Positions 2,757 to 60,405 of a DNA stretch of 64,000 nt are shown here, piece after piece. The DNA is from Patescibacteria group bacterium (GTDB lineage: Bacteria; Patescibacteriota; Patescibacteriia; 2-12-FULL-60-25), in contig JAVHLR010000001.1 in assembly GCA_031082005.1 (NCBI GenBank), positions 315,251-379,250 of the forward strand, read 5' to 3'. A program made the translations under genes and the position numbers. Under the pieces are notes generated by a model. The model saw only the letters and a program-made list of their open reading frames with translations. It was not told the origin of the DNA and made no database searches. Numbering within the stretch: position 1 is the first letter of the stretch; every line of letters begins with the position of its first letter.

Positions 2757-3692
2757 ATGTTCATCAAGCCGTTTGCGGAATTATCCAAATCCGACGTCGC
2801 ACTGGCCGGCGGCAAAGGCGCCTCTCTTGGTGAGATGACACACACCGGCATTCCTGTCCCGCCCGGCTTTGTAGTTCTTGCTCCAGCCTTCGACTGCTTT
2901 TTAACCGAGACGGATTTAACGCAAGAAGTCGCAGCGCAACTGGCGAAGGTGAATTACGAAGACGTCTCTTCCGTCGATCGCGCCTCGCGCGTCATCCACG
3001 ATCTGATCCACGACGCCAAGATGCCGGTCGATCTCGAGCAAGAGATTGTCTCATCCTTCAAGTCTCTCGGCGCAGAGCTCGTTGCGGTCCGCTCATCCGC
3101 TACCGCCGAAGACTCGTCCGTCGCGAGCTGGGCAGGCGAGCTCGAGAGTTATCTCAATACTACAGAAGCGACGTTGCTCGATAACGTAAAAAAATGTTGG
3201 GCCTCGCTCTTCACACCGCGCGCCATCGTGTATCGCAACGAAAAAGGCATGTGCGACACGCACGTTTCGGTCGCTGTCGTGGTCCAGAAGATGGTTCAGT
3301 CCGAAGTCGCCGGTATAACTTTCACCGTCCACCCGGTCACCAAAGATACGAATCAGATGATAATCGAAGCCTGCTGGGGCTTGGGCGAATTCATCGTCGG
3401 CGGCCGCGTCACTCCTGACTCTTACGTGATCGATAAGCGCGCCGGTTCGCTCATCGATGTGAATGTATCGGAGCAGGAGACGATGCTCATCAGAGGAGAG
3501 CAGGGGAACGATGAAGTCCCGGTTCCGGCCGAGAAAAAATCCGCACAAAAAATCTCCGGCCAACAAATCTCCGAACTCGGCAAGATCTGTACCGGCATCG
3601 AAAAGCATTACGGCTTTCCCTGTGACATCGAGTGGGGGATGGAAGGTGGTAAATTCCACATCGTACAAAGCAGACCGATAACTACGTTATGA
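2757..3692 (+). CDS. PEP synthase/PPDK N-terminal ATP-grasp domain protein (stand-alone)
   Basis: Motifs ALAGGKGASLGEM, VAVRSSATAEDSSVASWAGELES, IIEACWGLGEFIVGGRVTPDSYVID, CDIEWGMEGGKFHIVQSRPIT; ends at the ATP-grasp domain. Confidence 0.88.
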   Translation: MFIKPFAELSKSDVALAGGKGASLGEMTHTGIPVPPGFVVLAPAFDCFLTETDLTQEVAAQLAKVNYEDVSSVDRASRVIHDLIHDAKMPVDLEQEIVSSFKSLGAELVAVRSSATAEDSSVASWAGELESYLNTTEATLLDNVKKCWASLFTPRAIVYRNEKGMCDTHVSVAVVVQKMVQSEVAGITFTVHPVTKDTNQMIIEACWGLGEFIVGGRVTPDSYVIDKRAGSLIDVNVSEQETMLIRGEQGNDEVPVPAEKKSAQKISGQQISELGKICTGIEKHYGFPCDIEWGMEGGKFHIVQSRPITTL

Positions 3693-4837
3693 CCCCCTCC
3701 GAACTCCTCTCCTACCTCAAATCCCAAAAATGGTTTTTCGGCGTGCGAGCTGATGCTTCGTTGCTTTTTTATTCCAGTAAACAAGAGGGCGTGCGTCGTC
3801 ACGTCAAAACCATACACGGTATCGACTTTGCCGAGACCTTGCTGGCTCCGCTGAACGGTCAGCCGGTCCGCGTCATCAACGTCGAACAAGCCAAGGCGTT
3901 CCACGAAGTCAGCCTGGCTAAAGTCAAAGAGGATCCTTCGATTCTCGTCGAGCACATCAAGGAAAACGATAAGCTCTGGGTGCGTATCGGGCGTGAATGC
4001 GAAGCTTTGGACAAAGCCGTGAAGTCAGAAGACGAGACGGCTTCCGTCGAAGCCTACAGACAAGTCTCTGCATCTTACGCCGAGACCGGTGCGCAATTCA
4101 TCATCATCTTCTCTCTCGGCCTCAAGCTCACCGAGCTGAACGCGGTACGAGGTACGCTGTACGGTGATGCGCTTGCCCTGCACGACCATTGGCGTAATCA
4201 TGTCGCATTGAAAGAGGAACTCATGGGCGAATGTTGGTACGACTTTTTCGTCTTCATCGCAGAACGCCGCAGACTCAAGACGTCTGCTCTCGACTTGATG
4301 CGTTATCTCTCGCTGCCCGAGGTCTATTCGTGGTTAGAAGGAGAAAACGTCGACGTCGATGAGGTCGTATCAAGACGCATCAGACAGAGTTTCGTCTATC
4401 TCGATCTTCGGCAAGAACGTCGCGTTATCGATGACCCAGGACTGATTGCGCAGGTCGAAGCTCAATTTGCTTCACCAGAACCCGAACCTACAGCGACCGA
4501 CAGCACGATCAAGGGACAACCTGCTTATGTCGGAAAAGGATTAATCAAAGGCGAAGTCGTTGTCGTGAAATCAAAAGAAGACCTCGCATCAAAAGCGGAT
4601 CTCATCCCGGGAAAAATCCTCGTCGCCATCCAGACTACGCCGCATTACATCCCGTATCTGAAAGATGTTAAAGCCATCATTACTGACGAAGGTGGTATCA
4701 CCTGCCACGCCGCAATCCTCTCGCGTGAGATGAAGATTCCGTGTATTGTCGGGACGAAGAGAGCGACCAGTGTCTTGAAGGATGGGGATGAAGTCGAGAC
4801 GGATGTGGAGAAGGGAATCATCAAAATCATCAAATGA
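3689..4837 (+). CDS. PEP-utilizing enzyme mobile (phosphohistidine swivel) domain protein
   Basis: C-terminal swivel with catalytic His motif TDEGGITCHAAILSREMKIPCIVGT; overlaps upstream stop by ATGA. Confidence 0.85.
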   Translation: MTPSELLSYLKSQKWFFGVRADASLLFYSSKQEGVRRHVKTIHGIDFAETLLAPLNGQPVRVINVEQAKAFHEVSLAKVKEDPSILVEHIKENDKLWVRIGRECEALDKAVKSEDETASVEAYRQVSASYAETGAQFIIIFSLGLKLTELNAVRGTLYGDALALHDHWRNHVALKEELMGECWYDFFVFIAERRRLKTSALDLMRYLSLPEVYSWLEGENVDVDEVVSRRIRQSFVYLDLRQERRVIDDPGLIAQVEAQFASPEPEPTATDSTIKGQPAYVGKGLIKGEVVVVKSKEDLASKADLIPGKILVAIQTTPHYIPYLKDVKAIITDEGGITCHAAILSREMKIPCIVGTKRATSVLKDGDEVETDVEKGIIKIIK

Positions 4838-6095: not shown

Positions 6096-6109
6096 TTAAT
6101 ACCATCTTT

Positions 6110-6175
6110 GTCATCCCGGCCTACGAGCCGGGATCCTGAAGCTCGAGCCTGGATTCCCGCCTGCGCGGGAATGAC
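6110..6175. repeat. Palindromic repeat, family A (inverted orientation)
   Basis: Reverse complement matches the 2638-2699 copy. Confidence 0.8.
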
Positions 6176-6196
6176 GATGGAAAATGATAAACGACG

Positions 6197-11427: not shown

Positions 11428-12567
11428 ATGAAGATCGCCATCGACGCACGCATGATGGGAGCGGGTAACACCCGCGGAATCGGGCGATATATCGAGGAGT
11501 TGGTGCGCGCCATGTTGGACCTCGGAACAGATGATGAATTCGTCTTGCTCGTCAGACAATCGGACCACCCATTCGCGAGGCACCCCCGCGTCAGCACAGT
11601 GCTTGCGCCCGTCTCGTGGTACGGCTTTGCCGAACAGCTCAAGATGCCGGGAATACTGGAACGAACCGGCGCCGACGTCGTCCACGTTCCTCATTGGAAC
11701 GTGCCTTTGCTCTATCGTGGTCCTTTGGTCGTGACGGTACACGATCTGCTGCTTCGCCATTATCCTTCCAGCGCCAAAACGTCTACCCGAAGTTGGCCGA
11801 TACGACTCATGAAACGCATCTTATATCGCGCTGTAGTCGGGCACGCCGTCAGAGCAGCAAAAAAAATCCTTATTCCGACCGAGTTCACCCGCCACGACGT
11901 CGAAAGTTTTTATCCTGGAGCCAAGGGCAAGTCCGTCATGACAGGAGAGGGTATGCCAAAGCCCGTATCCGGTAGCTCGTATCCAGTATCTAGCACGGGC
12001 CGAGCTACCAGCTACCAGATACCAGATACTAGCTACCTGCTCTACGTCGGCTCTGCATATCCGCACAAAGGTTTAGATGATCTGCTGTCCGTATGGCCGG
12101 AGATCAGACGGCGCCATGCGATGTTGCGGCTCATTATAGCCGGGGAGATGGATATCTTCATGCAGCGCATGAAAGCATCGCATGCCGCACAGGGCGGAGT
12201 GGATTATTTGGGCAAAGTCAGCGATGACAGCTTAGAAAGGCTTTATGGTAATGCCATAGCGCTCGTCTTCCCCTCGCATTTTGAAGGTTTTGGACTGCCT
12301 CCTTTGGAGGCTTTGGCTCACGGTTGCCCCGTCATCAGCTCGGATGCAGCTTCGTTGCCCGAGGTGTTGGGAAAGCATGGCATTGAGTTCTTTCACGTCG
12401 GCGATGGAAATGGTATACTTTTGGCTGTAGAAAAGGTGTTAAGCGACAGGAAAAAAGCCCGAGAGGCAGCAGCGTCGGCAGCTCATGAACTGCAGCAACG
12501 CCACGATTGGCGCAAAGCCGCGAAATTGACTCTTGAGGCGTATCATTCAGTCAAAAATCGAGTGTGA
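11428..12567 (+). CDS. glycosyltransferase family 1/4 (GT-B)
   Basis: MKIAIDARMMGAGNTRGIGRYIEEL, YVGSAYPHKGLDDLL, ALVFPSHFEGFGLPPLEALAHGCPVISSDAASLPEVLG. Confidence 0.92.
   Translation: MKIAIDARMMGAGNTRGIGRYIEELVRAMLDLGTDDEFVLLVRQSDHPFARHPRVSTVLAPVSWYGFAEQLKMPGILERTGADVVHVPHWNVPLLYRGPLVVTVHDLLLRHYPSSAKTSTRSWPIRLMKRILYRAVVGHAVRAAKKILIPTEFTRHDVESFYPGAKGKSVMTGEGMPKPVSGSSYPVSSTGRATSYQIPDTSYLLYVGSAYPHKGLDDLLSVWPEIRRRHAMLRLIIAGEMDIFMQRMKASHAAQGGVDYLGKVSDDSLERLYGNAIALVFPSHFEGFGLPPLEALAHGCPVISSDAASLPEVLGKHGIEFFHVGDGNGILLAVEKVLSDRKKAREAAASAAHELQQRHDWRKAAKLTLEAYHSVKNRV
11961..12039. repeat. Palindromic repeat, family C, inside the glycosyltransferase ORF
   Basis: gtatccggtagctcgtatcc...agctaccagctaccagataccagatactagctac; shares exact 19-mer taccagataccagatacta with 59636-59716. 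Confidence 0.8.
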
Positions 12568-28405: not shown

Positions 28406-28467
28406 CGGACTCTGGTTGCAGCCTTGTCCTCTCGTTTTGAACCTGTTAAGATTCGGCAACGATTGAA

Positions 28468-28544
28468 CGGGCTATAGCGCAGTTGGCTAGCGCGCTTGCA
28501 TGGGGTGCAAGAGGTCGTGGGTTCAAGTCCCACTAGCCCGACCA
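28468..28544 (+). tRNA. tRNA-Pro (GGG), CCA encoded
   Basis: cgggcta...tagcccg, anticodon loop atGGGgt, ACCA. Confidence 0.94.
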
Positions 28545-28605
28545 AAAAATAATCCGCAAAAAAGCGGGTTATTTTTTTGTGAGATTTAAACGGGAAGTGG
28601 CTAAA

Positions 28606-30734: not shown

Positions 30735-30759
30735 CTCATAAAATCGACTAACGCACATG

Positions 30760-30821
30760 GTCATTCCCGCGCAGGTGGGAATCCAGGGTATATCTGGATC
30801 CCGGGTCAAGCCCGGGATGAC
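30760..30821. repeat. Palindromic repeat, family A
   Basis: gtcattcccgcgcaggtgggaatcc...gatcccgggtcaagcccgggatgac. Confidence 0.8.
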
Positions 30822-59233: not shown

Positions 59234-59628
59234 GAATCCTAGGCATCGACTATGGTTCTAAACGCGTCGGCATCGCACTCGGTGATACCGAGTCCAAGAT
59301 CGCTACACCGTGGTCGGTTTTGCCGAACGAAGGCGCATTGCCTTTGCTGGCCAAGATTCATGACATCGCTGAACGTGATCAAGTCGAGGAAATCGTCGTC
59401 GGCGTCCCACGTCCGCTGAAGGACTCGCATCTCGAGAACGAACAAGTTCGTGAAATAAACAAATTCATCCTCGGCCTCAAAGGACTCAACCTTCCGATCC
59501 ACGAAATCGACGAAGCTATGTCGTCCAAACTGGCGGCGCGACAAGTCTCGGCAGCAGGGGAGAAGGGGAAAAGGGATGATCTGGCGGCTGCCGCCATTCT
59601 GCAGACGTGGCTGGACAGGAGAGGGTGA
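59230..59628 (+). CDS. ruvX: Holliday junction resolvase RuvX/YqgF
   Basis: MRILGIDYGSKRVGIALGD; EIDEAMSSKLAARQ; DDLAAAAILQTWLD. Confidence 0.95.
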   Translation: MRILGIDYGSKRVGIALGDTESKIATPWSVLPNEGALPLLAKIHDIAERDQVEEIVVGVPRPLKDSHLENEQVREINKFILGLKGLNLPIHEIDEAMSSKLAARQVSAAGEKGKRDDLAAAAILQTWLDRRG

Positions 59629-59635
59629 GGAAGGT

Positions 59636-59716
59636 GTCTAGTAGCTAGTATCTGGTAGCTGGTATACATTCCAAATACTAGCTACAAGCTACCAAATACC
59701 AGATACCAGATACTAA
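59636..59716. repeat. Palindromic repeat, family C, intergenic copy
   Basis: gtagctagtatctggtagctggtat...atactagctacaagctaccaaataccagataccagatactaac. Confidence 0.8.
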
Positions 59717-59727
59717 CTGCTTCCCCC

Positions 59728-60405
59728 ATGTCCTACCTTCGCGACACTGTCATCGTCCTCAAGAAAGAACCGTTCCGCGAGCAGGATCGGCGCTATTATC
59801 TTTACGGCCGTGAACATGGTTTGCTCATCGCCGTGGCGCGAGGATCGAGCTCGCCTAAATCCAAACAAGCCGGACATCTTGAGCCGTTCTCATATGCCGA
59901 AGTCATGATCGCCAAAGGCACGGCGTTCGATAAGCTGGCGGTGGCAAAAGGGGCTGGATCGTACCTCGTACCTCGTACCTCGTACCTCGCAAGTTATGCT
60001 ATCCGCGGGTCCATCTCTGATTTAGTGCTAAAGTTGATGCGGCCCGGGGTCGCAGATGAACGGATTTATGACCTATTAGCTGAAACGCTGGATGTGACTG
60101 CGTCTTTCCCTGTAGAACCCTCGCCCGATAGGGCACGTCTCATCCTCTCCGCCGCGACGCTGAAACTTTTGGACGCGTTAGGTTTCGCGCCGATCATCAA
60201 CCCGTCCGGTGAAGCGACGACTCCTGTTCAGAGTCTGGCGCTCGCATCTTTCCTCCGCCGCGCTCCGCTTTCCGAAGTCCTCCGGATAACCGGCTCGGTC
60301 GATATCTTTCGCGCCACGTCCGGTTTCGTCGAGGAAGCCTTGAAAGCGACCCATCTGACGGATGCACCGACTGGCCCTAGAGTCATCGCAGCATTAAGCG
60401 CGTGA
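59728..60405 (+). CDS. recO: DNA repair protein RecO
   Basis: RDTVIVLKKEPFREQDRRYYLYGREHGLLIAVARGSSSPKSKQAGHLEPFSYAEV. Confidence 0.9.
   Translation: MSYLRDTVIVLKKEPFREQDRRYYLYGREHGLLIAVARGSSSPKSKQAGHLEPFSYAEVMIAKGTAFDKLAVAKGAGSYLVPRTSYLASYAIRGSISDLVLKLMRPGVADERIYDLLAETLDVTASFPVEPSPDRARLILSAATLKLLDALGFAPIINPSGEATTPVQSLALASFLRRAPLSEVLRITGSVDIFRATSGFVEEALKATHLTDAPTGPRVIAALSA
59961..59988. repeat. 7-bp tandem repeat (GTACCTC x4) within recO
   Basis: Direct reading: gtacctcgtacctcgtacctcgtacctc. Confidence 0.95.

Follow-up and report, generated by a model that had tools for sequence, protein, structure and literature searches.

Repeats with a unit of 7 nt have been described in several bacterial groups, among them the STRR of cyanobacteria, TAACTGA of Beggiatoaceae and Cyanobacteria (PMC4679880), GGGAATC of Xanthomonas and GGGGA(T/C)T of Nostoc (PMC4692102). 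According to the same two papers, heptanucleotides outnumber all other long simple repeats in the majority of bacterial genomes studied, and the length of DNA contacted by the polymerase is suggested as the reason for a 7-nt unit (PMC4679880, PMC4692102). The preference of bacterial tandem repeats for this unit is an old open question. In the tRNA-Leu intron of Nostoc, P6b is a heptad hairpin in which one class of heptads has repeatedly replaced another (PMC4476775). For palindromes that lie in frame within genes, a precedent is given by the Rickettsia palindromic elements (RPEs; Ogata et al. 2000, 2002), as recounted in two further papers (PMC10969869, PMC6649704).

Here, a palindromic repeat within a glycosyltransferase gene of Candidatus Uhrbacteria, an ultra-small bacterium, was followed from the window (the whole 64,000-nt stretch of DNA that was analysed) to the genome and to related Patescibacteria. 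No earlier report of such heptad arrays in Patescibacteria was found in the open-access literature, subscription papers being outside the scope of the search.

The glycosyltransferase and its heptad hairpin

The host ORF (11428–12567, plus strand) encodes a GT4-type glycosyltransferase of 379 aa with the Pfam domains Glycos_transf_1 and Glyco_transf_4. Its AlphaFold model has the GT-B fold (mean pLDDT 86.9) and the two Rossmann-like domains that, together with both Pfam domains, are features of GT4 membership, and Foldseek searches with this model returned solved GT4 enzymes as close matches. A first-pass annotation had described at 11961–12039 a palindromic repeat in the inter-domain linker of a GT-B enzyme, in frame, encoding an odd peptide ahead of the conserved YVGSAYPHKG and sharing an exact 19-mer with an intergenic copy. 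The sequence is as described there, with the repeat proper at 11965–12036; the segment is in frame and encodes the peptide given, LL separates that peptide from YVGSAYPHKG, and Pfam, AlphaFold and Foldseek agree on the location.

The repeat is an imperfect hairpin of 72 nt (24 codons, residues 180–203, VSGSSYPVSSTGRATSYQIPDTSY) with both ends at codon boundaries of the ORF, and its arms consist of inverted heptads GTAKCYN. The left arm (11965–11994, plus strand) reads GTATCCG GTAGCTC GTATCCA GTATCTA GC and the centre is ACGGGCCGAGC, while the right arm (12006–12036), which includes the shared 19-mer, reads GTAGCTA GTATCTG GTATCTG GTAGCTG GTA on the minus strand and TACCAGC TACCAGA TACCAGA TACTAGC TAC on the plus strand. 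Residues 180–195 have pLDDT values below 50 in the AlphaFold model and form coil between a strand that ends at 171 and one that starts at 203; the heptad peptide is predicted to lie in a disordered inter-domain linker.

The intergenic copy (59641–59716) is a hairpin of the same GTAKCYN family, placed between an ORF ending at 59628 and recO. The 19-mer TACCAGATACCAGATACTA occurs exactly at 12013–12031 and 59697–59715; with up to two mismatches allowed, four further matches appear, all inside these two elements, and 100 dinucleotide shuffles gave none. Two inverted matches, of 33 nt (88%) and 24 nt (96%), further link the two elements, whose RNA fold z-scores are −3.5 for the glycosyltransferase hairpin and −4.9 for the intergenic one. 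The exact 19-mer was rejected as proof of direct copying between the two loci, since such identity largely follows from the small heptad alphabet, GTA[GT]CT[AG]. Over 59659–59727, the right arm of the intergenic hairpin has no stop in the recO frame as far as the ATG at 59728, so that this element could become an N-terminal extension without a change of frame.

Searches with Rfam over the window matched tRNAs and nothing else. Its longest inverted repeat (83 nt, 90%; 1629–1711 and 28467–28549) is a tRNA-Pro pair with TGG and GGG anticodons, each gene adjoining a terminator-like hairpin that is similar between the two. Two more intergenic palindromic repeat families, CATCCCGGCCTACGAGCCGGGAT and TGGATTCCCGCCTGCGCGGGAATGAC, are present at 2664–2700, 6108–6179 and 30756–30787.

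Heptad families across the genome

Pattern searches over the whole genome (1.31 Mb), with the reversed pattern as control, found six elements of the GTAKCTN family. Three of these lie in frame within coding sequence, two in the gene for an EpmA-like lysyl-tRNA synthetase homologue and one in the glycosyltransferase gene; the other three are intergenic hairpins. A second family, GTACGNN, occupies about 20 loci, and neither control pattern matched anywhere in the genome. Within the window this second family is represented by an array at 59961–59992, GTACCTC on the plus strand and GTACGNN when read on the minus strand, which keeps the frame of recO (59728–60405, RecO by Pfam) and encodes SYLVPRTSYLA, and by an array at 4145–4163 (plus strand), in frame in an ORF (3689–4837) with a PEP-utilising mobile domain (Pfam). 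Dozens of heptad arrays have entered even essential genes of these bacteria. At least 13 genes of this genome, mostly conserved ones, carry in-frame copies, among them those for TsaD, PheT, RecO, a UvrD-like helicase, MurC, DnaE, DusB, the N-terminal subunit of transketolase, the EpmA-like protein, glycosyltransferases and a nucleotidyltransferase, where names other than RecO, the glycosyltransferase and those matched in the PDB were assigned from recognisable conserved motifs. The heptads in EpmA and TsaD lie at or beside alignment gaps relative to solved homologues.

The same families emerged when no pattern was supplied. Among tandem periods of 2–31 in 464 kb, a sampled third of the genome, period 7 was the sole clear peak (13 stretches vs. 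0–4 at other periods), all 13 stretches belonged to GTAKCTN or GTACGNN, and eight of the 11 independent elements in this sample were inside ORFs. Other copies of the repeat thus exist, some of them in frame in other ORFs. The picture in the first-pass annotation of one discrete palindromic element copied about is not supported: what recurs is a degenerate 7-mer array whose arm length, unit order and sequence family vary by site, and the proper comparison class is every heptad array of the genome, the GTACGNN family included.

These observations bear on the proposal that the repeat is a non-autonomous palindromic element (RPE-, MITE- or REP-like), mobilised whole by an enzyme and tolerated in linkers. 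In-frame insertions in loops of many genes, the hairpin form, the dispersal of two families in one genome and the restriction of families to certain lineages would all fit such an element. Against the proposal, no conserved full-length element was seen, single arms are common, orientation differs among elements as do arm length and unit order, and the many unrelated heptads have their period alone in common. The Y1 transposase of the REP type (PF01797), the one transposase family covered, had no match in the genome, although control genomes did match. Of the features of MITEs, fixed ends in the form of terminal inverted repeats were not seen, and the orthologues are too diverged for target-site duplications to be judged. 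We regard a mobile element as rather unlikely. Among 2.9 million viral contigs, long arrays turned up in just 30 for one family and 10 for the other, and a phage vector accordingly looks unlikely.

Orthologous sites and related genomes

In the sister species G003 (73% identical), the glycosyltransferase linker holds no heptads and is 8 aa shorter. The same place is taken by an inverted GTAGCTA/GTAGCTG array in G002 and by a GTACG array (peptide EVRGTRYEVRGT) in G001, and linkers of other relatives carry GAGTTTC plus GGACCRA, CTACTTC, TCCCAAR or CAACTGT heptads. Orthologues devoid of the repeat therefore exist, and none was found to encode the same peptide without it. The insertion claimed by the first-pass annotation stands in so far as the array is in frame and in the linker; since it adds no more than 8 aa net relative to the closest orthologue without the repeat, the ancestral linker was replaced or overwritten and not simply interrupted.

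The comparison was extended to eleven further genes with in-ORF heptads and their orthologues in G001–G003. Relative to some of the orthologues, the heptads are in-frame insertions in UvrD, EpmA (sites 1 and 3) and MurC. At most of the sites they are common to G003, several sites are empty in species of the same genus, and in other species the sites hold unrelated repeats (e.g., the perfect palindrome GTAGGGGCGAGGTTACCTCGCCCCTAC). The occurrence of heptads and unrelated repeats at the same sites marks tolerant loops as recurrent landing places for several kinds of repeat.

One palindrome family, GTAGGGGCGA...TCGCCCCTAC with close variants, is in frame in UvrD, nucleotidyltransferase, DusB and PheT of same-genus species, at sites (L263, the UvrD of G001, and L251, L259, L258 and L243) that are heptad sites in the genome studied here; exact copies occur in six of 41 family genomes. 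At the second site of the EpmA-like gene of G001 (L240), where this genome has GTAGC heptads, GATCCTTCGACAAGCTCAGGA is in frame and resembles one half of a dispersed palindrome.

Heptads of other genomes in the family keep the period of seven but change in sequence. Among those of G016 are GAATTAA, GACTAAA and CCGAATC; CCCTACT and AAGGGCA occur in G014, and 100 kb of G005 contained no heptad stretches. Long GTACG arrays are found only in two of the 21 genera of the family. In a sample of 380 genomes of the phylum, long GTAKCT arrays are limited to 13. The genome G133, of a more distant Patescibacterium, contains 16 heptad stretches in 40 kb, built on more than 10 unit sequences; four arrays (AAAGTCA, AATTTAA, GGAAAAT and CTACAAA) are in frame in its leucyl-tRNA synthetase ORF (L281 3290–5177, 936 aa), at or beside alignment gaps relative to solved LeuS. 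The ORFs adjoining this gene, one of them ObgE-like, hold more heptad arrays.

Chance or an assembly artefact might be suspected, as the genomes are drafts or metagenome bins. With no matches in shuffled sequence, ORFs that stay open and the same families at homologous sites in separately assembled genomes, a recurrence that refutes it, this explanation has a negligible probability.

Change within the arrays and reading frames

Divergence was measured in ten aligned genes between this genome (G000) and G003. Within the GTACG core, 20% of third codon positions differ, as against 48% in the flanks, and the NN doublet differs at 48% even where it falls on codon positions 1 and 2, at which the flanks differ at 12%; the labelling of the core favours the consensus somewhat, even though a match to the core was required in just one of the two sequences. 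The heptad register, and not the codon, governs change in these arrays. Since the core is kept and NN is free irrespective of codon position, the array evolves as DNA and not as peptide, and for the GTACG family selection on the peptide is thereby excluded as the main cause. Selection at the protein level, with a linker peptide rich in Tyr, Ser and Pro as its target and the DNA repeat as a by-product, could draw on the location in a linker, whose length and flexibility may be important; yet the linkers of orthologues are unrelated and of other lengths, the same family is also intergenic, and divergence in the GTACG arrays follows the register. This leaves protein-level selection highly improbable.

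Selection for a DNA motif, homogenisation and recurrent insertion of one family would each fit the retention of the core. A signature of slippage was sought in the doublets and not found: neighbouring NN doublets of an array resemble each other no more than doublets do on average over the genome, a result that speaks against recent slippage by single units. Each genome has its own doublet spectrum (CG in G001 and G003, AT in G428, TG and TT in G016), suggestive of genome-wide spread or homogenisation.

A functional DNA or RNA motif, in which GTACG or GTAKC arrays spaced at 7 nt would be putative binding sites or structural signals under selection also inside genes, would account for a core kept between sister species and for doublets free of local homogenisation. 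It sits poorly with families that are wholly different between genera, with the coexistence of several in one genome, with the empty sites in same-genus species and with placement, since elements occur inside ORFs, between convergent genes and between co-directional genes. The core pattern is explained equally well by homogenisation or by recurrent insertion of one family. We consider a functional motif improbable, somewhat more so than a mobile element.

As 7 mod 3 = 1, an array of more than three units encodes the same cyclic heptapeptide whichever frame of a strand is used, and a heptad without stops can thus be read at any landing site; a remark akin to this frame logic was made for the TAACTGA repeats (PMC4679880). 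GTACGNN is free of stops in all frames of both strands except when NN is TA, and GTAGCTN arrays are so mainly in the TACCAGC orientation, the one found in the long arm of the glycosyltransferase element and at both EpmA sites. As a filter, stop-freeness was weak over the 63 arrays (p = 0.07), and half of the possible heptads have no stop on either strand.

Proposed origin and significance

Degenerate arrays with a 7-nt period, often as inverted, hairpin-forming arms, would arise and spread as DNA. Of 63 arrays, 16 have an inverted partner at a distance of up to 120 nt, compared with six of 189 control placements. Replication or repair may stall at a hairpin or short repeat, whereupon the nascent strand could re-anneal one or more 7-nt registers off or switch template across the hairpin, and repeat DNA might be pasted into new sites. 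Within genes, arrays would be retained only where the loop or linker is tolerant, the net change in length is a multiple of three and the heptads contain no stops. In the glycosyltransferase, the array would have overwritten or replaced the linker between the two Rossmann-like domains and may now act as a flexible, near-neutral spacer. Slippage or template switching in the 7-nt register is inferred as the most likely generating mechanism; the presence of the same degenerate family at about 20 dispersed loci calls for a route to new loci beyond slippage alone.

Taken as a whole, the reading of 11965–12036 as a member of genome-wide degenerate heptad arrays, spread as DNA by slippage or template switching and kept in tolerant loops, is one that we hold at roughly even confidence. 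More tentatively, and short of even confidence, the arrays may represent an undescribed selfish or mechanically generated DNA of Patescibacteria, with the 7-nt step as its sole invariant, in which lineage-specific degenerate heptads with a fixed core and a free doublet are copied to new loci and held as DNA even in essential genes, the same loops being overwritten time and again and several families sharing one gene, as in the leucyl-tRNA synthetase of G133.

In these very small genomes, heptads are the dominant repeat, are common to orthologous sites of related species and lie in essential proteins, so that the mutational step, the spread and the cost to the protein can be traced by ordinary comparative genomics. 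The arrays would account for odd low-complexity peptides in the proteins of these bacteria (e.g., TSYQIPDTSY, the G001 linker peptide given above and VPRTSYLVPRT), and they form a natural series of loop insertions in essential enzymes.

Comparison with known repeat systems

Our best reading is that the heptad arrays are a new Patescibacteria variant of heptanucleotide (STRR-type) repeats, RPE-like in genes without being RPEs. The parallel with RPEs drawn in the first-pass annotation applies to behaviour in genes: according to the same accounts, RPEs are palindromes that keep the frame of essential genes unrelated to one another, where they add translated segments, and they have intergenic copies too. 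They also differ, since those accounts describe discrete families of about 100–150 nt with conserved sequence and peptide; the element in the glycosyltransferase measures 72 nt and has variable arms, and heptad arrays in general are built of 7-nt units in varying length and order, have only heptad motifs in common, can belong to several families at one site and occur in an unrelated phylum. REP elements with their RAYT differ in requiring the Y1 transposase that this genome lacks.

The coding palindromes of Nematomorpha mitochondria (PMC6649704) and the tandem repeats of Borgs (PMC9879509) resemble the heptad arrays in being repeat DNA within ORFs, in tolerated or disordered segments, with dynamic gain and loss. 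Neither has a fixed, degenerate 7-nt unit: the former are perfect and long, and the latter are perfect repeats that give perfect amino-acid repeats. P6b of the cyanobacterial tRNA-Leu(UAA) intron likewise has two complementary arms of 7-nt motifs and replacement of heptad classes at the same site (PMC4476775), but it is a single site in a self-splicing intron and is not protein-coding. STRR-type repeats come closest, with 7-nt tandem units at many dispersed loci, lineage-specific sequence and some inverted pairs. Their units are mostly near-perfect and mainly intergenic, whereas those of Patescibacteria are degenerate, with a fixed core and a free doublet, and their arrays are often in frame in essential genes.
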